Shown one piece after another: positions 33,296 through 44,662 of a stretch of DNA of 64,000 bases. Position numbers and translations under genes: made by a program. Source of the stretch: Nocardioides renjunii (GTDB taxonomy: Bacteria; Actinomycetota; Actinomycetes; Propionibacteriales; Nocardioidaceae); the NCBI RefSeq assembly GCF_034661175.1, contig NZ_CP141058.1, positions 930,001 to 994,000 of the forward strand. Reading direction: 5' to 3'. Each line of letters opens with the position of its first letter. The first letter of the stretch is position 1. Under the pieces are notes generated by a model that was given only the letters and a program-made list of their open reading frames with translations, was not told the origin of the DNA and did no database searches.

Positions 33296-35008
33296 GTGTC
33301 CGACACCCTGATCGACGCGAACTGGCTGGACTACCTGCTGGTCGCGATCTACTTCGCCTTCGTCCTGGGCATCGGGGTGATGGCGCGCCGCTCAGTCTCC
33401 GACTCGATCGACTTCTTCCTCTCGGGCCGCTCGCTGCCCGCCTGGGTCACCGGTCTCGCGTTCATCTCGGCCAACCTCGGTGCGGTCGAGATCATGGGCA
33501 TGTCGGCGAACGGCGCCGAGCTGGGCCTGCCGACGTTCCACTACTTCTGGGTCGGCGCGGTCCCCGCGATGCTGTTCCTCGGTGTCGTGATGATGCCGTT
33601 CTACTACGGCTCCAAGGTGCGCTCCGTGCCGGAGTTCATGTTCCGCCGCTTCGGCACCGGGGCCCACCTGGTCAACGCGATCAGCTTCGCCGTGGCCCAG
33701 CTGCTCATCGCCGGCGTCAACCTCGCGCTGCTGGCCGGGATCGTCCGCGCCCTGCTGGGCTGGCCGATCTGGGTCTCGCTCATCGTGGCGGGCGCCGTCG
33801 TGCTGTCCTACATCACGCTGGGCGGCCTGAGCGCGGCGATCTACAACGAGGTCCTGCAGTTCTTCGTGATCGTCGCCTCCCTGCTCCCGCTGACCCTGAT
33901 CGGCCTGCACCGGGTCGGCGGCTGGGACGGCATGACCGAGAAGATCACCGCGGCCGCCGACGGCGCGTCGTCCGCGTCGGACGCGCCACCGGCGTCGCAA
34001 CAGCTCAATGCCTGGCCGGGGGAGGCGCTCTCCGGCTTCGACTCGCCACTCCTGTCCGTCATCGGGATCGTCTTCGGCCTCGGGTTCGTGCTGTCCTTCG
34101 GCTACTGGACGACCAACTTCGTCGAGGTGCAGCGCGCGATGGCGTCGGACTCCATCTCCGCCGCCCGGAAGACCCCGATCATCGGCGCCTTCCCCAAGAT
34201 GTTCGTGCCGTTCATCGTGATCGTGCCCGGCATGGTCTCCGCCGTCCTCGTCGCGGAGATGATCGAGCTCAAGAACGGCGGCAGCCCCGAGGGCGGCGCG
34301 TCCGGGGAGGGCGTCGCCTACAACGACGCGCTGCTGCTCCTGATGCGCGACGTCCTGCCCAACGGGCTCCTGGGGCTGGCGATCGCCGGACTGCTGGCGG
34401 CCTTCATGGCGGGCATGGCGGCCAACATCTCCGCCTTCAACACGGTCTTCTCCTACGACCTGTGGCAGCGCTACATCCGCAAGAACCACTCCGACGACTA
34501 CTACCTGCGGATCGGCCGGCTGGCCACCGTCGGCGCGACGGTCATCGCGATCTTCACCGCCCAGATCGCGCTCGGCTACGACAACGTCATGAACTACCTC
34601 CAGACGCTGTTCGGCTTCTTCAACGCGCCGCTGTTCGCGACGTTCATCCTCGGCATGTTCTGGAAGCGGATGACGCCCACGGCCGGCTGGGTGGGGCTGG
34701 TCGCCGGCACCCTGTCGGCGATCGCGGTCGACCGGACGGCGGCGGCCGGTGTCTTCGAGCTGTCCGGCCAAGGCGTGGCGTTCCTCGCCGCGTCGGTGGC
34801 CTTCGTGGTCGACATCGTGCTCAGCGTCGTGGTGTCGCTGGTGACCAAGCCCAAGCCGGCCAGCGAGCTGCGCGGCCTGGTCTACTCCGAGACCCCGCGC
34901 GAGGACCTCGTCGACCCGGCCGAGGCCGCCCGACCGTGGTACCAGCGCACGCTCCCGCTCGCCGGCATCGCGCTCGCGATGGTCATCGCCCTCAACTTCG
35001 CCTTCTGA
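33296..35008 (+). CDS. Sodium:solute symporter family (SSS) transporter
   Basis: 570 residues with about 13 hydrophobic helices. DYLLVAIYFAFVLGIGVMARRSVSDSIDFFLSGRSLPAWVTGLAFISANLGAVEIMG is the SSSF N-terminal signature and FGYWTTNFVEVQRAMASDS is typical of the sugar/solute branch. Na+-coupled import of a sugar-like or organic solute is inferred; adjacency to the xylose locus is suggestive only. GTG start behind GGGAGGT. The small membrane gene 13 nt downstream is its likely partner. Confidence 0.9.
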   Translation: MSDTLIDANWLDYLLVAIYFAFVLGIGVMARRSVSDSIDFFLSGRSLPAWVTGLAFISANLGAVEIMGMSANGAELGLPTFHYFWVGAVPAMLFLGVVMMPFYYGSKVRSVPEFMFRRFGTGAHLVNAISFAVAQLLIAGVNLALLAGIVRALLGWPIWVSLIVAGAVVLSYITLGGLSAAIYNEVLQFFVIVASLLPLTLIGLHRVGGWDGMTEKITAAADGASSASDAPPASQQLNAWPGEALSGFDSPLLSVIGIVFGLGFVLSFGYWTTNFVEVQRAMASDSISAARKTPIIGAFPKMFVPFIVIVPGMVSAVLVAEMIELKNGGSPEGGASGEGVAYNDALLLLMRDVLPNGLLGLAIAGLLAAFMAGMAANISAFNTVFSYDLWQRYIRKNHSDDYYLRIGRLATVGATVIAIFTAQIALGYDNVMNYLQTLFGFFNAPLFATFILGMFWKRMTPTAGWVGLVAGTLSAIAVDRTAAAGVFELSGQGVAFLAASVAFVVDIVLSVVVSLVTKPKPASELRGLVYSETPREDLVDPAEAARPWYQRTLPLAGIALAMVIALNFAF

Positions 35009-35021
35009 GAGAGGTCCCACC

Positions 35022-35342
35022 ATGTCCCACGCGACCGACTCCGACGAGTCGACCGGCACGCCGCACAAGGCCGGCCTCTTCGACATCCGCAACATCATCG
35101 GTGCCCTGCTGGGCATCTACGGCGTGATCCTGGCGCTCGCGGGACTCCTCGGCGAGCACGAGCCCGAGAAGACGGGCGGCGTCAACGCCAACCTGTGGAC
35201 GGGGCTGGCCCTGCTGGCCGTCGGTGCCGGCTTTCTGCTGTGGGCGAAGGTGCGTCCCATCGTCGTGCCCGCCGACGTGCACGCTCCCGACGACGACCCC
35301 ACCCGACCGGCTCCGCAGCGCAAGCGCCCGCCGGCACACTGA
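35022..35342 (+). CDS. Small two-helix membrane protein downstream of the symporter
   Basis: 106 residues with two transmembrane helices (IIGALLGIYGVILALAGLLG and LWTGLALLAVGAGFLLWAKV), a short periplasmic loop and a basic Pro-rich C-terminus. FDIRNIIGALLGIYG is typical of a small protein often found after SSS transporters in actinobacteria. Function unknown; a subunit or stability factor is plausible. GAGAGG precedes the ATG. Confidence 0.8.
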   Translation: MSHATDSDESTGTPHKAGLFDIRNIIGALLGIYGVILALAGLLGEHEPEKTGGVNANLWTGLALLAVGAGFLLWAKVRPIVVPADVHAPDDDPTRPAPQRKRPPAH

Positions 35343-35423: not shown

Positions 35424-35452
35424 TTTACGTGACGGTCCTCACTCCATATGTT
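35424..35452 (+). promoter_or_regulatory. Promoter of the sugar ABC operon
   Basis: TTTACG (35424-35429) and TATGTT (35447-35452) with a 17-nt spacer make a sigma-70-type promoter. The -10 lies inside the palindrome at 35445-35469, giving a simple repression geometry. Confidence 0.55.
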
Positions 35453-35469
35453 GTCCCGGACAACATATG
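35445..35469. promoter_or_regulatory. Perfect 25-bp palindromic operator
   Basis: Left arm CATATGTTGTCC, one central base, and the exact reverse complement of the arm. It lies 58 bp upstream of the binding-protein gene. The local ROK regulator (38842-40071) is the obvious candidate to bind it. Confidence 0.85.
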
Positions 35470-35527: not shown

Positions 35528-36628
35528 GTGAAGCGGAAGCACAATTTGGTCGTCGTACCCCTGATCGGTGCCGCTATGGCCCTCACTGCCTGTGGCAGTG
35601 ACGACGGTGGCAGCTCGGGCGAGGACACCGGCAGCAGCGGCGAGAGCCAGGCCGCGGAGGGCAAGATCGGCGTCATCCTCCCCGACACCGAGTCCTCGGT
35701 GCGCTGGGAGAGCGCGGACCGCCCGGCGCTCGAGAGCGCCTTCGAGGAGGCCGGCGTCGAGTACGACATCCAGAACGCCGAGGGCGACGCCGAGCGGATG
35801 ACCCAGATCGCCGACACCATGATCGGTGACGGCGTGACCGTCCTCGCGATCGTCAACCTCGACTCCGAGTCGGGCGCGGCCATCCAGGAGAAGGCCAAGT
35901 CCCAGGGCGTCGCGACGATCGACTACGACCGGCTCACCCTCGGTGGCTCGGCGGAGTACTACGTGTCCTTCGACAACACCGTCGTGGGCGAGCTGCAGGG
36001 CCAGGGCCTCGCGGACTGCCTCGGCGACAAGGACGCCAACATCGTCTACCTCAACGGCTCTCCCACCGACAACAACGCGACGCTGTTCGCCGAGGGCGCC
36101 CACAGCGTGCTCGACGAGATGAGCAACTACACCGTCGTCGGTGAGCAGGCCGTCCCGGACTGGGACAACGAGGAGGCCGCCACGATCTTCCAGCAGCTCT
36201 ACACCGCTGCCGACGGCAAGGTCGACGGCGTGCTCGCCGCGAACGACGGCCTGGGTGGCGCTGCGATCAGCATCCTCGAGGCCAACGGCCAGGACGGCAA
36301 GGTCCCGGTCACCGGCCAGGACGCCACCGTCGAGGGCCTGCAGAACGTCCTCGCCGGCACGCAGTGCATGACGGTCTACAAGTCCGCCACGCAGGAGGCC
36401 GGCGCGCTCGCCGACGTCGCCATCGCGCTCGCCACGGGCGGGGAGGCCGAGACCACCGGCACGACGGTCGACTCCTCGGACGACAGCGAGGTGCCCTCGA
36501 TCCTGCTCGAGCCGCAGTCCATCACCAAGGACAACGTGGGCGACGTGATCGAGGACGGTGGCCAGAAGGCCGCGGACGTCTGCACCGCGGACTTCGCCGA
36601 CCTGTGCGCCGAGGCCGGGATCTCCTGA
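35528..36628 (+). CDS. xylF: Xylose-type ABC transporter substrate-binding lipoprotein
   Basis: 366 residues. Lipoprotein signal (MKRKHNLVVVPLIGAAMALTAC), acidic Gly/Ser linker, then a periplasmic-binding-protein I fold: KIGVILPDTESSVRWESADRPALESAFEEAG, IVYLNGSPTDNNATLFAEGA, GVLAANDGLGGAAISILEANG. This is the D-xylose/ribose type family. Xylose is favoured by the xylA and xylB genes nearby. GTG start behind AGGAGG. A 20-bp hairpin after the stop separates it from the ATPase gene, and a shortened relative sits at 43967-44662. Confidence 0.9.
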   Translation: MKRKHNLVVVPLIGAAMALTACGSDDGGSSGEDTGSSGESQAAEGKIGVILPDTESSVRWESADRPALESAFEEAGVEYDIQNAEGDAERMTQIADTMIGDGVTVLAIVNLDSESGAAIQEKAKSQGVATIDYDRLTLGGSAEYYVSFDNTVVGELQGQGLADCLGDKDANIVYLNGSPTDNNATLFAEGAHSVLDEMSNYTVVGEQAVPDWDNEEAATIFQQLYTAADGKVDGVLAANDGLGGAAISILEANGQDGKVPVTGQDATVEGLQNVLAGTQCMTVYKSATQEAGALADVAIALATGGEAETTGTTVDSSDDSEVPSILLEPQSITKDNVGDVIEDGGQKAADVCTADFADLCAEAGIS

Positions 36629-36724: not shown

Positions 36725-37501
36725 ATGGTCCAACCGCTGCTCGAGCTGCGCGGGGTCAACAAGAGCTTCGGCGTGGTGCACGTGCTGCATGACGTCGACT
36801 TCGCCGTCTACCCGGGGCAGGTCACCGCCCTGGTCGGCGACAACGGCGCCGGCAAGTCCACGCTCGTGAAGATCATCGCCGGCATCTACGGCCGCGACAG
36901 CGGCGACTTCCACTTCGACGGCCAGAAGGTCGACGTCCACGGTCCCCGTGACGTCGCCGCCCTCGGCGTCGAGGTCGTCTACCAGGACCTCGCGCTGTGC
37001 GACAACCTCGACATCGTCGAGAACATGTTCCTCGGCCGCGAGGAGACCACCCGCCTCGGCCTCGACGAGATCACGATGGAGTCGCGCGCGCGCGAGACCC
37101 TGGCGTCGCTCTCGGTGCGCACCGTGAAGTCGGTGCGCCAGAGCGTCGCCAGCCTCTCCGGCGGCCAGCGCCAGACCGTGGCCATCGCCAAGGCCGTGCT
37201 GTGGAACTCCAAGGTCGTCCTGCTCGACGAGCCCACCGCGGCGCTCGGTGTCGCGCAGACGCGCCAGGTGCTCGACCTCGTGCGCCGCCTCGCCGACCGC
37301 GGGCTCGGCGTGGTGCTGATCTCGCACAACATGGGCGACGTCTTCGAGGTCGCCGACCGGATCACCGCGCTCTACCTCGGCCGCGTGGCGGCCGACGTCC
37401 CCACCAAGGACGTCACGCACAGCCAGGTCGTCGAGCTCATCACCGCCGGACGATCCGGCAACCTCGGCATCGCCGAGAACCCCGCGACCGCGACCGTCTG
37501 A
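36725..37501 (+). CDS. xylG: Sugar ABC transporter ATP-binding protein, single domain
   Basis: 258 residues. Walker A GDNGAGKST (38-46), signature LSGGQ (144-148), Walker B VVLLDEP (D168), switch His in LISHNMGDVF. It has a single ATPase domain, whereas classical XylG/RbsA have two, so a homodimer is expected; one-domain forms of this family are common in actinobacteria. LGVAQTRQVLDLVRRL is typical of the sugar family. GGAGTGAGGA precedes ATG 36725. Permease follows 20 nt later. Confidence 0.9.
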   Translation: MVQPLLELRGVNKSFGVVHVLHDVDFAVYPGQVTALVGDNGAGKSTLVKIIAGIYGRDSGDFHFDGQKVDVHGPRDVAALGVEVVYQDLALCDNLDIVENMFLGREETTRLGLDEITMESRARETLASLSVRTVKSVRQSVASLSGGQRQTVAIAKAVLWNSKVVLLDEPTAALGVAQTRQVLDLVRRLADRGLGVVLISHNMGDVFEVADRITALYLGRVAADVPTKDVTHSQVVELITAGRSGNLGIAENPATATV

Positions 37502-37521: not shown

Positions 37522-38832
37522 ATGACCGACGCCTCACCCGACGTCTCCTCGGACGTCTCGACGCACCCCACCTCGAGTGGTGCCTCGGCCGCCGACGGCG
37601 GCTTCGACAACGACAACGTCCAGGCCACCTCGATCGCCGACTCGGCCCGCGACTACGTCAACCGCCTGCGCGGCGGCGACATGGGATCCCTGCCCGCCAT
37701 CCTCGGCCTGGTCTTCCTCGTCATCGTCTTCGCCTCGCTCAACGACCGCTTCCTGACGACCTACAACATGGCGAACCTCGTCGTGCAGGCCAGCTCGATC
37801 ATCGTCCTGGCCATGGGCCTGGTGTTCGTGCTGCTCCTCGGCGAGATCGACCTGTCGGCCGGCGTCGCCGGCGGCGCCTCGGCGACGATCATCGCGCTGA
37901 TGCTCATCGACTACGACTGGACCTGGTGGCTGGCCACGCTCGCCGGGCTCGCCACGGGAGCCGTCATCGGCCTCGCGATCGGCGCCCTGGTCTCGTTCCT
38001 CGGGATCCCGTCCTTCGTCGTGACGCTCGCCTTCTTCCTCGCCCTGCAGGCGGTCCCGCTCCGGCTCATCGGCTCCGGCGGCTCGCTGCGCTTCAACGAC
38101 GAGGTCCTGCGCGGGCTCTCGATCAAGAACGTCCCGGTCACCGCCGGCTGGATCGCGGCGGTGCTTATCGTGGCCGTCTTCGCCGGGCTGTCGCTGTGGC
38201 GCTACCGCTCGCTGTCGTCCCGGGGCCTGGTCCACCAGCCGCTCGGGCTCGTGGTCCTCAAGATCGCCGTGCTGGCCGTGATCGTGCTCGGGCTCACCGC
38301 CCTGCTGAGCGCCAACCGCGCGCCCAACCCCAACCTGTTCGACATCAGCGGTGTCCCGTGGGTGGCGCCGGTCGTCATCGCGCTGCTGCTGTTCTGGACG
38401 TTCGTCCTCACCAAGACCCGCTTCGGGCGCCACCTCTACGCCGTCGGCGGCAACGCCGAGGCCGCCCGCCGTGCCGGCATCAACGTGCGCCGGATGCGGA
38501 TCTCCGCCTTCGTGATCTGCTCCTCGATGGCCGCCATCAGCGGGCTGCTGTCGGCGTCCTACACCGGCAAGGTCTCGCCGGGGTCCGGTGGCGGCAACGT
38601 GCTGCTCTACGCCGTCGCGGCCGCCGTCATCGGCGGCACCAGCCTCTTCGGTGGGCGCGGTCGCGCGATCGACGCGGTCATCGGCGGCCTGGTCATCGCC
38701 ACGATCCCCAACGGCCTCGGCCTGCTCAACCAGGCGGCCTACATCAACTTCGTGGTCACCGGTGGCGTCCTGCTGCTCGCGGCGAGCGTCGACGCGATCT
38801 CGCGGCGGCGCCGGTCCTCGGCCGGCGTGTAG
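37522..38832 (+). CDS. xylH: Sugar ABC transporter permease
   Basis: 436 residues with about ten transmembrane helices after an acidic ~55-residue cytoplasmic start. LLLGEIDLSAGVAGGASATI is the BPD_transp_2 signature of ribose/xylose permeases, and GRHLYAVGGNAEAARRAGINVRRMR is the ATPase-contact loop. GGAG precedes the ATG. ROK gene begins 9 nt after the stop, so transport and regulation share one transcript. Confidence 0.92.
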   Translation: MTDASPDVSSDVSTHPTSSGASAADGGFDNDNVQATSIADSARDYVNRLRGGDMGSLPAILGLVFLVIVFASLNDRFLTTYNMANLVVQASSIIVLAMGLVFVLLLGEIDLSAGVAGGASATIIALMLIDYDWTWWLATLAGLATGAVIGLAIGALVSFLGIPSFVVTLAFFLALQAVPLRLIGSGGSLRFNDEVLRGLSIKNVPVTAGWIAAVLIVAVFAGLSLWRYRSLSSRGLVHQPLGLVVLKIAVLAVIVLGLTALLSANRAPNPNLFDISGVPWVAPVVIALLLFWTFVLTKTRFGRHLYAVGGNAEAARRAGINVRRMRISAFVICSSMAAISGLLSASYTGKVSPGSGGGNVLLYAVAAAVIGGTSLFGGRGRAIDAVIGGLVIATIPNGLGLLNQAAYINFVVTGGVLLLAASVDAISRRRRSSAGV

Positions 38833-38841
38833 GTCGAGCAC

Positions 38842-40071
38842 GTGAGCCCGCAGCGGCGCTCGGGCCTCGGCACCAACCAGGAGGCCATCCGGCGCCACAA
38901 CCTCGGCACGGTGCTGCGGCACGTCCACGGCGCCGGCCAGATCTCGCGGGCCGAGCTCACCAGCCGCACCGGTCTCAACCGCAGCACCATCGCGGGGCTG
39001 GTCGGCGAGCTGGAGTCGCTGGGGCTGTCCGAGCGGACCTCGCCCGTGGAGGGCGTACGCCAGGGCGCGGGTCGCCCCTCCGCGGGTGTCCGGATCGCCG
39101 CCGACGGGCCCTACGTCATCGCGGTGGACCTGGGCGTGGACCGGGCCGTCGTGGCCCGCACCGGGCTCGGCGGCCGGGTCCTGCAGCGGGCCCACGCCGC
39201 GGTCGACAGCGACGGCGAGGCGTGGCAGGTCGGCGCTGCGGTGGCGGCGCTGATCCGCACCGTCGTCGAGGACGCGCCGGCCTCGGCGCCGCTCGTCGGG
39301 ATCGGCATCAGCGTGCCGGGCCTGGTGCGGCGCAGCGACGGGCTGATCCGGCTCGCCCCCAACCTGGAGTGGCACGACGTGTCCTTCGGGGGCATCGTGC
39401 TGGCCGCCCTGGGCCTCGACGTCCCGGTCTGCCTCGCCAACGACGCCGACCTGGGTGCCCTCGCCGAGCACACCCGCGGCGCCGGGGTCGGCACCGGCGA
39501 GCTGATCTACGTCTCCGGCAACGTCGGCGTCGGCGCCGGGATCATCACCGGCGGGCAACGCCTCGAGGGCGCGGGCGGCTACGCCGGCGAGGTCGGCCAC
39601 CTGCGGTTCAACCCCGACGGCCGCCCCTGCCACTGCGGCAGCCGCGGGTGCTGGGAGACCGAGGTCGGCGCGCACGCCATCGCCGCGGCGATCCAGTGCC
39701 CGCCGGACAAGGTGGCCCAACTCGACGAGGTGCTCGACGGCTTCGACACGCCGTCGGCCGCGCTGCGCTCCACCGGCACCGCCCTCGGGCAGGGCCTGGC
39801 GAGCCTGGTCAACATGTTCAACCCGCAGATGGTCGTCCTGGGCGGCTACTTCCGCTCGCTCTACCGGCTGGTGGCGGCGGAGGTCGACGCCGGGCTCGCC
39901 GACCGCGCCCTGCCCGCACCGCTCGAGTCGGTGACGCTCTCGCTCCCGGGCCTCGGCTCCGACTCGCCCCTGCTCGGCGCGGCGGAGATCGCCCTCGAGC
40001 CGTTGTTCACCGACCCGGTCGCCGCGCTCGGCACCGCCCTCGTCGACGTGCAGGGCCGGCTCGCCGGCTGA
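38842..40071 (+). CDS. ROK-family transcriptional regulator (ABC arm)
   Basis: 409 residues. Winged HTH at ~10-75 (HNLGTVLRHVHGAGQISRAELTSRTGLNRSTIAGLVGEL), then a ROK sugar-kinase-like domain with VDLGVDRAVVART and the zinc motif CHCGSRGCWE after GEVGHL. XylR/NagC-type repressors of this family release DNA on sugar binding. As last gene of the ABC operon it probably acts on the palindrome at 35445-35469. GTG start. The stop codon lies in a 25-bp tandem repeat. Confidence 0.9.
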   Translation: MSPQRRSGLGTNQEAIRRHNLGTVLRHVHGAGQISRAELTSRTGLNRSTIAGLVGELESLGLSERTSPVEGVRQGAGRPSAGVRIAADGPYVIAVDLGVDRAVVARTGLGGRVLQRAHAAVDSDGEAWQVGAAVAALIRTVVEDAPASAPLVGIGISVPGLVRRSDGLIRLAPNLEWHDVSFGGIVLAALGLDVPVCLANDADLGALAEHTRGAGVGTGELIYVSGNVGVGAGIITGGQRLEGAGGYAGEVGHLRFNPDGRPCHCGSRGCWETEVGAHAIAAAIQCPPDKVAQLDEVLDGFDTPSAALRSTGTALGQGLASLVNMFNPQMVVLGGYFRSLYRLVAAEVDAGLADRALPAPLESVTLSLPGLGSDSPLLGAAEIALEPLFTDPVAALGTALVDVQGRLAG

Positions 40072-40115: not shown

Positions 40116-40136
40116 GGCTGACCCCTTGGGTCAGCC
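40116..40136. terminator. Bidirectional terminator hairpin
   Basis: GGCTGACCC, 3-nt loop, exact complement. It lies between two converging ROK genes and includes the TGA stop of the minus-strand gene. Confidence 0.75.
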
Positions 40137-41303
40137 GGGCAGCTCGGCGTCGCCCGCGAAGACGGCGTCGAAGGACTGCTCCGCAGCCCCGAGGGCCGCG
40201 GCCCGGATGCCGAGCGTGCTCGGTCGCAGGTCGGGGCGCACCTGCACCTCCGAGGCCAAGCGCTCGTCGAGCGTGCGCCGGGCGGGCTCGAGCACCAGGT
40301 CGCCCAGCGGGGCGAAGTAGCCGCCCATCACCACCACCTCGGGGTCGAGCACGCTGCTGAGCATGGCGATCCCCAGACCGACGTCGCGCCCCACCCGCTC
40401 CAGGACGGCGCGGACGCCGGCGTCGGTGCGTGCGCGCGCGGCCACCGACTCGGCCGTGCGCAGCGGGGTGTCGAGCTCCGGCATCCCGACGGCGGCCAGC
40501 ATCGCGTGGAGGCCGATGGACGCCTCCCAGCAGCCGCGGCGCCCGCACCCGCAGGGCGCGGTCGAGTCGCCGACCGGCATGTGGCCGACCTCGCCGGCGA
40601 AGCCGGCACCGCCGCGCATCACCTCGCCGTCCTGCACGATGCCGGCGCCGATGCCGACGGTCCCGGTGAGGTAGAGCGCGTGGGCGGCGCCCCGGGCAGC
40701 GCCGTGGTGCGACTCGGCGTACGCCGCGCAGTTGGCGTCGTTGCTCACCTGCACGCGCAAGCCCGGGAGCAGGCGGCCGAGGGCGTCGGCCAACCCGGCG
40801 CCCTCGACCGCGAGGTTGGGCGCCCACGCCACCGTCCGGTCGTCGCCCCGCACCAGCGCGGGCACGGCCAGGGTCGCGCCGACGGTCGGCCGCTCCAGCC
40901 CGGTGTGCCGGCGGACCACGTCGCGGGCGAGGTCGAGCAGCGCGGCACCGGTCGGGGCCGGCCGGACCTCGCTGTGGAGCACGTCGCCGGCCAGGTCGAC
41001 CACGACGGCCGAGACGTAGTCGACGTTGAGCTCGAGCCCGAGGGCCACGAAGCGGTCACCGCGCAGCCCCACCGGGCGGCCGGGGCGCCCACGCGCCCCG
41101 GACCGCGCGTCCTCCTCGGCCACCGCGCCCTTGGCCTCCAGGTCGGCGACGATGACGCCGACGGTCGCCTTGGCCAGCCCGGTGTGCTTGGCCAGCTCCG
41201 CGCGCGTCGCCGGACCGTGCCGGCGCAGCGCGCGGAGCACGGCTGCGGTGTTGTGCCGGCGCAGCCCCTCGGTGGCGCTGGCCTGACGGGTGGGCCCGCT
41301 CAG
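40131..41303 (-). CDS. ROK-family transcriptional regulator (xylAB arm)
   Basis: 390 residues if started at CTG 41303. HTH at ~10-70 ([39 protein letters not shown]), ROK domain with [26 protein letters not shown] and zinc motif [10 protein letters not shown]. The open frame has no ATG, GTG or TTG between the xylA stop and the HTH, except a GTG that would remove the first helix. CTG 41303 overlaps the xylA stop as CTGA, so a CTG start by translational coupling is my best reading. It is third in xylB-xylA-ROK and likely controls the palindrome upstream of xylB. Confidence 0.85.
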
Positions 41304-42466
41304 CGGACGCCGTAGAGGTGCTCGAGCGCGAGCTGGTCGAGCAGCTCGAAGCCGCCGCCACGCGTGGCGAGGGCCTCGGGGTCCGCGAGCTCGGCGTCGA
41401 GCAGGCCCTTCCAGCCCTCGGCGGCGTCGACGGTCGGCACGGCGAGCTCGGTGACCTTCGCGGCCTCCAGCGCGGCCTGCACCTCGGGGTCGGCGCGGAA
41501 CGCCTTCACCTTCTCGCGCAGGATGAGGTAGTTGCGCATGTTGGCCTCGGCCGAGACCCACACGCCGTCCTCGTCCTCGGTGCGCGCCGGCTTGTAGTCG
41601 AAGTGCACCGGGCCGTCGTAGCCGCCCTCGAGGAGCGCGTCGACCACCCAGAAGGCGCCGCGCACGTTGCCCGCGCCGAAGCGGAGGTCCTGGTCGTACT
41701 TGGGACCGTTCTGGCCGTTGAGGTCGATGTGGAACAGCTTGCCGGCCCACATGGCCTGCGCGTAGCCGGCCGCGGCGTTCATGCCGGCCATCTCCTCGTG
41801 CCCGATCTCCGGGTTCACGCCGACGAGCTCGGGGCGCTCGAGGCGCTCGATGAACGCCAGCGCGTGGCCGATGGTCGGCAGCAGGATGTCGCCGCGCGGC
41901 TCGTTGGGCTTGGGCTCGATCGCGAAGCGGAGGTCGTAGCCCTGCTCGGTGACGTAGTCGCCCAGGAGGTCGAAGGCCTCCTTCATCCGGTCCAGCGCCA
42001 CGCGGGTGTCCTGCGAGGCGCCGTACTCGGCACCCTCGCGACCGCCCCAAGCGACGTAGGTCTTGGCGCCCAGCTCTGCGGCGAGGTCGACGTTGCGCAT
42101 CACCTTGCGCAGCGCGAAGCGGCGGATGTCGCGGTCGTTGTTGGTGAACCCGCCGGACTTGAAGACCGGGTGGCTGAAGAGGTTGGTCGTGGCCGTGGTG
42201 ACGACCAGGCCGGTGTCCTCGAGGCCCTTCTTGAAGCGGGCGATGATGCTGTCGCGGGTGGCGTCGTCGCTGCCGAAGGGGATGACGTCGTCGTCGTGGA
42301 AGTTCACGCCGTAGGCCCCGAGGGCGGCGAGCTTCTCGAGCGCGTGGACGGTGTCCATCGGCGGGCGGGTGGCGCCGCCGAAGGGGTCGACGCCCTGCCA
42401 GCCCACGGTCCAGAGGCCGAAGGAGAACTTGTCCTCGGGGGTCGGGGTGGGGATCTGCGTGCTCAT
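41300..42466 (-). CDS. xylA: Xylose isomerase
   Basis: 388 residues, the actinobacterial class I length. Converts D-xylose to D-xylulose (and D-glucose to D-fructose) with two divalent metals. [11 protein letters not shown] and VNFHDDD with catalytic H57, [16 protein letters not shown] with metal-binding Glu and the active-site Lys, [11 protein letters not shown] and [16 protein letters not shown] are all intact. AAAGG precedes the ATG, 10 nt after the xylB stop. Confidence 0.97.
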
Positions 42467-42476
42467 GGGATGCCTT

Positions 42477-43862
42477 TCAGTCGGTCCAGGGGGTGGTGCG
42501 GTCGCGCAGGTCGGCGTAGGCCTCGCGCACGTGCGGGGTGGGCTCGGCCTCGAGGACCGTGGTGCCGGGCGCCGGCCACTGCGGCGGCTCGGCGGTGCCG
42601 GCCAGCGCCCAGGCGGCCTGCCGCGCGGCGCCGAGGGCGACGTACTCGCCGGGGGGCGGGAGGGTGACGGCCGTGCCGAGGACGGCCGGCGCGAGCGCGC
42701 GGACGGCCTCGCTCCGGGTGGCGCCGCCGACCACGAGCAGGCGCCGCGGTGGCTGGCCGGTGGCCGCCACCAGCCGGTCGACTGCTTCGGCGAGCGAGCA
42801 GAGCAGGCCCTCGTACGCCGCCCGCGCGAGGTCGGCGCGGGTCGTGGCGGGGGTCAGCCCGGTCCACGTGCCGACGGCGTCGGGCCGGTTGGGGGTGCGC
42901 TCGCCGCCGTAGTAGGGGAGCAGGGTCACCCCGCCGGCGCCGGGTGCGGACTCCAGCGCCAGGGCGGCGAGGCCGTCGTGGTCGACGCCGAGCCACCGGG
43001 CCTGCAGGTCGAGGATGCCCGCGGCGTTCATCGTGGTGACCATCGGCAAGAAGCCGCCGCTCGCGTCGGCGAAGCCGGTCACCGTCCCGGTGCCGTCGGC
43101 CACGGCCGTCGCGCTCACCGTGGACGCCACTCCGGACGTCCCGATGGAGACGAGGACGTCGCCGGGGGCCAGCGCCATCCCGAGCGCGGCGCCCATGTTG
43201 TCGCCGGTGCCCCCGGCGACGAGCGCGCCACCGGACGTCTCGGCGGCGAACGTGCCCGGCGCGACGACGCGCGGGAGGACGGCGTCGTGGCCGAGCGCCT
43301 GCTCGAGGAGGTCGTGGCGCCAGGAGCCGGCGGTCGCGAAGTAGCCCGTGCCCGACGCGTCGCCGCGGTCGGTGAACGGCTCGGTCCCGGGGGCGCTGAG
43401 GTGGCGTGACACGAAGTCGTGGGGGAGCAGGACGCTGCGCACCCTGGCGGCCCGGTCCGGCTCGTGGTCGCACAGCCAGCGCAGCTTGGTGGAGGTGAAG
43501 GAGGCGACGAGCACGCTGCCGATCGCGTCGGCGCAGGCCTGCGGACCACCCATCTCGGCGATCAGGTCGCGCGCGGCGGAGGCCGAGCGGGTGTCGTTCC
43601 ACAGCAGCGCGTCACGGACCGGGGCGCCGGTCTCGTCGAGGGCGACCATGCCGTGCTGCTGCCCGGCGACCGCGACGGCGGAGGCCTGCTCGAGCAGCCC
43701 CTCGGTCGCGGTGTCGACGGCGCGCAGCCAGGCGGCGGGGTCGACCTCGGTGCCGGGCGGGTGGGGCGCGGTCCGCTTGGCGACGACGGTGCCGTCGTCG
43801 GCGTCGACGAGCAGCGCCTTGGTCGACTGGGTCGAGGAGTCGATGCCGAGGACGAGGGTCAC
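42477..43862 (-). CDS. xylB: Xylulokinase
   Basis: 461 residues of the FGGY kinase family. Phosphorylates D-xylulose to xylulose 5-phosphate for the pentose phosphate pathway. [18 protein letters not shown] is the N-terminal phosphate motif, [13 protein letters not shown] and [10 protein letters not shown] carry substrate residues, and [22 protein letters not shown] is the C-terminal FGGY signature. I use GTG 43862; the upstream extension to 44036 is not similar to the family. A palindrome at 43870-43892 sits directly before the start. Confidence 0.95.
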
Positions 43863-43869
43863 CCCGCTA

Positions 43870-43892
43870 TTAAGTACGAGTCTCGAACTAAA
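43870..43892. promoter_or_regulatory. Palindromic operator upstream of xylB
   Basis: 23 bp centred on 43881: TTAAGTACGAG, T, CTCGAACTAAA; 9 of 11 positions are symmetric. It starts 8 nt from the xylB GTG, as expected for a repressor site overlapping the transcription start. It differs from the ABC-operon palindrome. Confidence 0.75.
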
Positions 43893-43966: not shown

Positions 43967-44662
43967 ATGCTCCGCGCCCGCCTCCCACTCGCCGCCCTCG
44001 CGCTCCTCGCCGCACCGCTGCTGTCCGCGTGCGCAAGCGACGAGCCGACCGTCGCCCTGCTGGTCGCCGACGGCACCGACTCCTCGTCGCGCGCGGTCGA
44101 CGTCGAGGCGTTCACCGACCGGGTCGAGGCGACCTGTGACGAGTGTCGGGTCGAGGTCTACGACGCCGAGGGAGACGCGGCCACCCAGAAGAGCCAGGTC
44201 CGCCAGGCCGCGGCGACCTCCGCCGACGTCGTCGTGGTGGTGCCGGTCGACCCCGACGACCTCGGCACCCTCACCGGGGGCGAGCTGCCCGTGGTCTCGC
44301 TCGGTGAGCTGGTGCCGGGCTCCGACCGCTTCGTCGGCCTCGAGGGCGGCGCCGTGCCCACCCAGTCCGGCACGGACCTCGAGGCCGCGCGCGACGTGCT
44401 GCTCGGCGAGGAGCGGTCGATGACCTACGTCCCGACCCGGGCGATGAGCGAGCAGGCGGCCGACATCGCAGTGTCCTACCTCGCGGGGGACCCCGCCACG
44501 GGCGGCGAGGACGTCGACGGGGTCGAGTCGTGGCTGCACCGCGACCAGGACGTGACCGTGGACAGCCTCACCTCGGTGCTCGTCGCCCAGGGCGTGCTCA
44601 CCCTCGACGACCTGTGCAGCGGCGCCACCGAGAAGCGGTGCACGAGGCTGGGCCTGAGATGA
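43967..44662 (+). CDS. Shortened sugar-binding-protein-like lipoprotein
   Basis: 231 residues. Lipoprotein signal ending LLSAC (Cys ~22). The first ~110 mature residues follow the N-terminal lobe of the binding protein at 35528 (YDAEGDAATQKSQVRQAA beside QNAEGDAERMTQIADTM), and the last ~85 follow its C-terminus (SMTYVPTRAMSEQAADIAVSYLAG beside CMTVYKSATQEAGALADVAIALATG; both end with D-L-C regions). About 130 residues of the middle are missing, which would remove much of the second lobe. It may be a decayed copy or a truncated sensor. It is divergent from xylB. Confidence 0.75.
   Translation: MLRARLPLAALALLAAPLLSACASDEPTVALLVADGTDSSSRAVDVEAFTDRVEATCDECRVEVYDAEGDAATQKSQVRQAAATSADVVVVVPVDPDDLGTLTGGELPVVSLGELVPGSDRFVGLEGGAVPTQSGTDLEAARDVLLGEERSMTYVPTRAMSEQAADIAVSYLAGDPATGGEDVDGVESWLHRDQDVTVDSLTSVLVAQGVLTLDDLCSGATEKRCTRLGLR

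Follow-up and report, generated by a model that had tools for sequence, protein, structure and literature searches.

The closest described systems are the XylR regulators of Paenibacillus and Bacillus, Rok7B7 of Streptomyces, and XylR of Thermotoga maritima. The tested Paenibacillus XylR site, ACTTAGTTT-N7-AGACAAAGT, is a 25-bp element with a 9-7-9 layout and a GTTT core (PMC9104551). Rok7B7 is presented in a review as a ROK regulator that adjoins and represses xylFGH (PMC8966007), and one study reports that EMSA could not show direct binding by the S. coelicolor protein (PMC4856308). XylR of T. maritima, a ROK regulator that responds to xylose, governs the uptake and use of this sugar and controls 27 genes in seven operons (PMC3750489).

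Here, we analyze a xylose cluster within a 64,000-nucleotide stretch of Nocardioides renjunii DNA (the window), in which a perfect palindrome lies upstream of an xylFGH-like operon that ends with a ROK-family gene, referred to below as ROK1. The site has the XylR/ROK-type operator layout, i.e., an AT-rich dyad of about 25 bp with a GTT-type core and a 7-base center at the promoter of sugar genes. The locus shares with the XylR systems (PMC9104551) a ROK regulator beside xylose genes, a 25-bp 9-7-9 dyad, and the promoter location, and the Paenibacillus site and the palindrome have G, T, and T in common at left-arm positions 6 to 8. The systems differ in three respects: the core is GTTG/CAAC here whereas it is GTTT/AAAC in theirs; the site here would guard an xylFGH ABC operon rather than xylAB; and ROK1 is the last gene of its operon, whereas their regulator is divergent. 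The likeness to Rok7B7, a ROK regulator adjoining and repressing xylFGH, is drawn from its published description (PMC8966007), and the seven operons ascribed to T. maritima XylR (PMC3750489) contrast with the single operon predicted for ROK1.

We propose, with a probability of about 0.9, that the palindrome is the ROK1 operator, such that ROK1 would cover the -10 element and repress its own operon until xylose releases it. We observe a conserved site that is linked to ROK1 and overlaps a conserved promoter-like pair; we infer the binding, its direction, the inducer, and an additional CRP-type control described below.

The xylose cluster and its palindrome

The genes of the cluster are as follows.

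35528..36628, + strand: xylF-like sugar-binding protein (Peripla_BP_4; best NCBIfam match xylF TIGR02634, below cut-off)
36725..37501, + strand: xylG-like single-domain ABC ATPase (family search)
37525..38832, + strand: xylH-like permease (BPD_transp_2)
38842..40071, + strand: ROK1, ROK-family regulator, last operon gene and proposed binder of the palindrome (PF00480)
40131..41252, - strand: ROK2, second ROK-family regulator, after xylA, start codon uncertain (family search)
41300..42466, - strand: xylA, xylose isomerase (TIGR02631, over cut-off)
42477..43862, - strand: xylB, xylulokinase, likely GTG start at 43862 (TIGR01312, over cut-off)

The order is therefore xylF-xylG-xylH-ROK1 on the plus strand followed by xylB-xylA-ROK2 on the minus strand. 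Since the ABC genes score below the curated NCBIfam cut-offs, the xylose label of the transporter rests on the best match, TIGR02634, and on the neighboring genes. The xylG-like ATPase has one ABC domain in 258 aa; the sugar ATPase models that it matched best have about 500 positions. ROK1 carries the ROK sugar-kinase-like domain (PF00480, 162.6 bits against a cut-off of 22.9) and an N-terminal winged helix-turn-helix, which aligns from residue 12-15 with the full-length regulators 1z05, Lmo0178 (5f7r), and Mlc (1z6r); Pfam MarR_2 matches this N-terminus only below its cut-off.

The palindrome occupies the 185-bp gap between a small gene (35022-35342) and the GTG-started xylF-like gene (35528):

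35445..35469, no strand assigned: proposed ROK1 operator, perfect 25-bp palindrome CATATGTTGTCC-C-GGACAACATATG (sequence and conservation)

Its half-sites are CATATGTTG-N7-CAACATATG. The sequence-only reading had reported a perfect 25-bp palindrome overlapping the -10, over a range that begins at the -35 (35424); the palindrome itself is exact at 35445-35469. Upstream of the operon (33296-35342), the small gene, which has no family match, accompanies a sodium:solute symporter gene, and both genes also lie upstream of the site in four related loci (L112, L115, L119, and L125).

The palindrome is the longest perfect one (gap of 0 or 1) in the window, where the next two have 9-base arms. When the window was modeled by 60 first-order Markov sequences, arms of at least 12 bases arose 0.05 times per 64 kb; the expectation from a composition formula is 0.08 per window, or about 5.5 per 4.40-Mb genome. 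Given these expectations, the symmetry alone is uncommon but not extraordinary, is not rare genome-wide, and is suggestive rather than decisive. The description of the symmetry as far beyond chance was thus overstated (0.05 per 64 kb). Palindromes with arms of at least 9 bases and at least half AT occurred in none of the 60 Markov sequences. It is the conservation described below, not the symmetry, that is the strong evidence for the predicted site being real.

A genome search for further copies, suggested earlier as a way to define a regulon, found none of TATGTTGT-N5-ACAACATA within 3 mismatches beyond 35445-35469, with 0 for the reversed control. A loose 15-base core at 3 mismatches gave 381 matches per strand in the genome, against 129 for its reversed control, and is uninformative. 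Because the palindrome is single-copy, the predicted ROK1 regulon is one operon, xylFGH-ROK1.

Distribution of the site among relatives

Three sets of loci were compared, whose rows are related, so that the counts below are not independent events. Set A, chosen by XylF similarity, comprised the window and 35 further loci, one each from 35 of 47 matching genomes (58 searched). A site with no more than 5 mismatches over the 18 half-site positions was present in all 19 loci with ROK1 directly after xylH, versus none of the 17 xylFGH loci without ROK1 at that place. For set B, ROK1 similarity was used to choose 40 stretches in family genomes that lack the exact pattern, a choice biased against the hypothesis if anything; after removal of 4 with no usable XylF upstream, a degenerate site (at most 5 mismatches) was found in 34 of the 36 usable ROK1 loci, the exceptions being L184 (6 mismatches) and L185 (7). 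In shuffled upstream regions, 0 of 2,360 reached 5 mismatches or fewer. The 46 stretches of set C were chosen for an exact site and are thus unable to test its presence; ROK1 follows xylH in 43 of them, and the other three (L106, L122, and L146) end in xylG or xylH before that place.

A search of 294 family genomes found the exact pattern TATGTTG-N7-CAACATA in 57 (0 for the reversed control), always upstream of xylF and 45-330 bp from its start. ROK1 was found (E up to 1e-70) in 54 of these 57 genomes, and the exceptions, G158, G177, and G278, are the three genomes whose stretches break off. Conversely, 61 family genomes encode a ROK1 with 64% identity or more, and the exact pattern is present in 40 of these and absent from 21. 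The site starts 50-121 bp before xylF in 92 of 96 loci; the best match in L167 is found at -204. In loci with xylA divergent from xylF, exact dyads occupy the intervening region, twice in L134 and L145.

Beyond the family, TATGTTGT-N5-ACAACATA was present in 10 of 394 genomes of a class-wide sample. Four of the 10 are from outside the family, and all four instances stand beside xylose genes: two precede xylF, and the other two lie in the interval separating xylB from xylA. The 37 titled records examined include 17 more distant loci that combine xylF with a ROK1 relative; GTTG-N7-CAAC precedes xylF in 12 of these, including loci from Actinoplanes, Actinokineospora, and uncultured bacteria. This motif was absent near xylF in the other five, for which a looser look gave partial sites with 3 (L244), 7 (L247), 5 (L249), 5 (L261), and 4 (L266) mismatches. 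Two Streptomyces ROK loci beside xylA/xylB were scored and have no such dyad, the best matches having 8 (L257) and 9 (L260) mismatches.

Overlap with a promoter-like pair and proposed mode of action

The palindrome overlaps a promoter-like pair and is preceded by a second dyad.

35424..35429, + strand: proposed -35 hexamer TTTACG, 17 nt from the -10 (conserved hexamer at that spacing)
35447..35452, + strand: proposed -10 hexamer TATGTT, inside the left arm (TANGTT in 56 of 56 non-redundant relatives)
35429..35442, no strand assigned: conserved dyad GTGACGGTCCTCAC, GTGA-N6-TCAC, CRP-like by inferred regulator, starting at the final -35 base and extending into the spacer

The letters and 17-nt spacing of both hexamers are as the sequence-only reading gave them. 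For the promoter statistics, 78 loci with a ROK1 identity of 47% or more were thinned to 56 non-redundant relatives. These relatives were preselected for at most 5 half-site mismatches, so the arm conservation, including TANGTT in 56/56, is partly built in; the -35 and the second dyad lie outside the bases used for selection. The hexamer TGGACG, TAGACG, or TTTACG stands 17 nt upstream of the -10 in 46 of the 56 relatives, and 10 of 14 loci with lower ROK1 identity have a TTG-starting hexamer at the -35 place. The right arm varies more, with A in 33 and T in 23 of the 56 relatives opposite the A of TATGTT (arm position 4), whereas the left arm keeps the -10 bases. This asymmetry is expected if the left half serves as operator and -10 at once. 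A generic sigma-70 promoter scan did not call the xylF promoter, and the -35/-10 assignment thus draws on conservation and spacing.

The second dyad fits GTGA-N6-TCAC, which we take to be the CRP/GlxR consensus. GTGAC-N5-TCAC is present in 40 of the 56 relatives and a looser form in 49, and the genome encodes one protein over the PF13545 CRP-type HTH cut-off. None of the 14 loci with lower ROK1 identity has the dyad at that place; these loci have a conserved GTGA...GTCAC 27-40 bases after the start of the dyad. CRP-type carbon control is a probable additional role of the element. For a transcript beginning near 35459, the center of the element would be near -23, which suggests repression rather than classical activation.

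Altogether, we envisage that a ROK1 dimer would read one CATATGTTG half-site per subunit, the left one containing the -10 TATGTT. In the absence of xylose, ROK1 on the -10 and start-site region would block RNA polymerase and would also limit its own synthesis; xylose would loosen ROK1, and the operon would be expressed. Control would be local to the xylFGH-ROK1 operon, with the GTGA-N6-TCAC dyad at the -35 end potentially contributing carbon control of the CRP type. Xylose is put forward as the inducer because of the adjacent xylA and xylB and the characterized XylR and Rok7B7 proteins.

A mainly activating or a dual role of ROK1, once bound to the site, is improbable in our estimate. Such a role would have a parallel in Rok7B7, which the review describes as pleiotropic, repressing and promoting different genes; according to one of its figure legends, Rok7B7 is activated by a xylose product and then represses xylFGH, the opposite of simple induction (PMC8966007). 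However, the palindrome overlaps the conserved -10, a position that fits blocking, and the same review states that Rok7B7 represses xylFGH and that xylose is the releaser in S. avermitilis (PMC8966007). Repression by ROK1 with release by xylose is the preferred reading.

Two ROK regulators and their proposed sites

The earlier proposal that the operon's own ROK protein (38842-40071) is the likely regulator of the palindrome is supported by how site presence follows ROK1 (19/19 versus 0/17 in set A, 34/36 in set B). The second regulator, ROK2, may have a site of its own:

43870..43892, - strand: proposed ROK2 operator, separate dyad TTTAGTTCGAGACTCGTACTTAA, 7 bases before the likely xylB GTG start at 43862

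This dyad directly follows a TTGAC -35-like element ahead of xylB-xylA-ROK2. In 12 ROK2 loci compared, with the L048 row left out, it is found within 4 mismatches in 9, and L049 and L052 have 6; three loci without ROK2 have 11-13 mismatches, but xylB is not the first gene there. Since the likely xylB start is so close to the dyad, the transcript may be leaderless.

Binding of the palindrome by ROK2, or by both ROK proteins with joint switching of transport and catabolism, would fit two observations: ROK2 is a ROK regulator encoded in the same cluster, and its proposed site has G and T at the same arm positions 6 and 7, the arms being GTTC and GTAC instead of GTTG. We nevertheless regard such binding as improbable, given three lines of evidence. 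First, the site is kept in all 38 ROK1 loci (7 from set A, 12 from set B, and 19 from set C, 19 of the 38 not having been chosen by site) that lack ROK2 at 45% identity or more within the fetched stretch, of which at least 1.9 kb was read beyond ROK1 in each. Second, ROK2 has its own dyad at xylB, which is single-copy in the genome. Third, the recognition helices differ, being mostly LNRST in site-linked ROK1 proteins (LNRAT in L241, LSRST in L249, VSRST in L266) and LAKAT in ROK2; in a ROK tree the two proteins also occupy separate branches. The assignment of the site to ROK1 rather than ROK2 (40131-41252), as a putative binding partner, is thus supported.

A role of the palindrome at the RNA level, or its origin as a hairpin that is structural (terminator, attenuator) or due to chance, is very improbable: the perfect symmetry could form a stem and about 0.05 such palindromes are expected per 64 kb by chance, but no terminator-like site was found, the predicted transcription start about 7 nt after TATGTT would leave the left arm outside the transcript, palindrome presence follows ROK1, and the half-sites are conserved as sequence, beyond mere pairing.

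A different arrangement is seen in loci L060-L072, where a ROK gene lies in front of xylF, divergently in loci of the same genus and on the same strand in L061-L065. These loci have no GTTG dyad, show CTTGA-type repeats by eye, and encode ROK proteins with a third type of helix, whose end reads TVSN or nearly so, on a tree branch apart from ROK1. The present locus is not of this type, as ROK1 is downstream in its operon and has a different dyad and branch. The putative replacement of the GTTG dyad by CTTGA-type repeats suggests that regulator and operator were exchanged together.

We consider it about an even bet that a broader picture holds, in which xylose uptake and breakdown are split, in this lineage, under two private ROK repressors with a shared operator layout, the cores GTTG (ROK1) and GTTC/GTAC (ROK2) matching the helices LNRST and LAKAT; in which actinobacterial xylFGH promoters have exchanged whole regulator-operator pairs (ROK1 behind xylH versus a ROK protein in front of xylF); and in which one half of a ROK1-type operator doubles as the -10. 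ROK operators at sugar promoters are already known. A literature search, whose coverage mostly excluded subscription journals, found no description of the operator or the one-operon regulon proposed here. The analysis offers a precise, testable candidate operator for a ROK regulator of Nocardioides and its relatives, together with a one-operon regulon, and the ROK1-operator pair might be used as a sugar switch for high-GC hosts. In addition, three ROK types with three kinds of sequence at xylose promoters provide material on how ROK proteins choose DNA. A residue-by-base code, pairing the change of helix N to S with arm position 9 G to C (L249 and L266), was considered but is not claimed, since neither site showed a matching change in both of its arms.

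For the xylB region, searches used the reading frame extended to 43895, and the L048 and L053 slices were left out of an earlier xylB-upstream comparison, being off the stretch or not at the operon head. A reading frame with a lipoprotein-like start (MLRARLPLAALALLAAPLLSACAS) at 43967-44662 points away from xylB.
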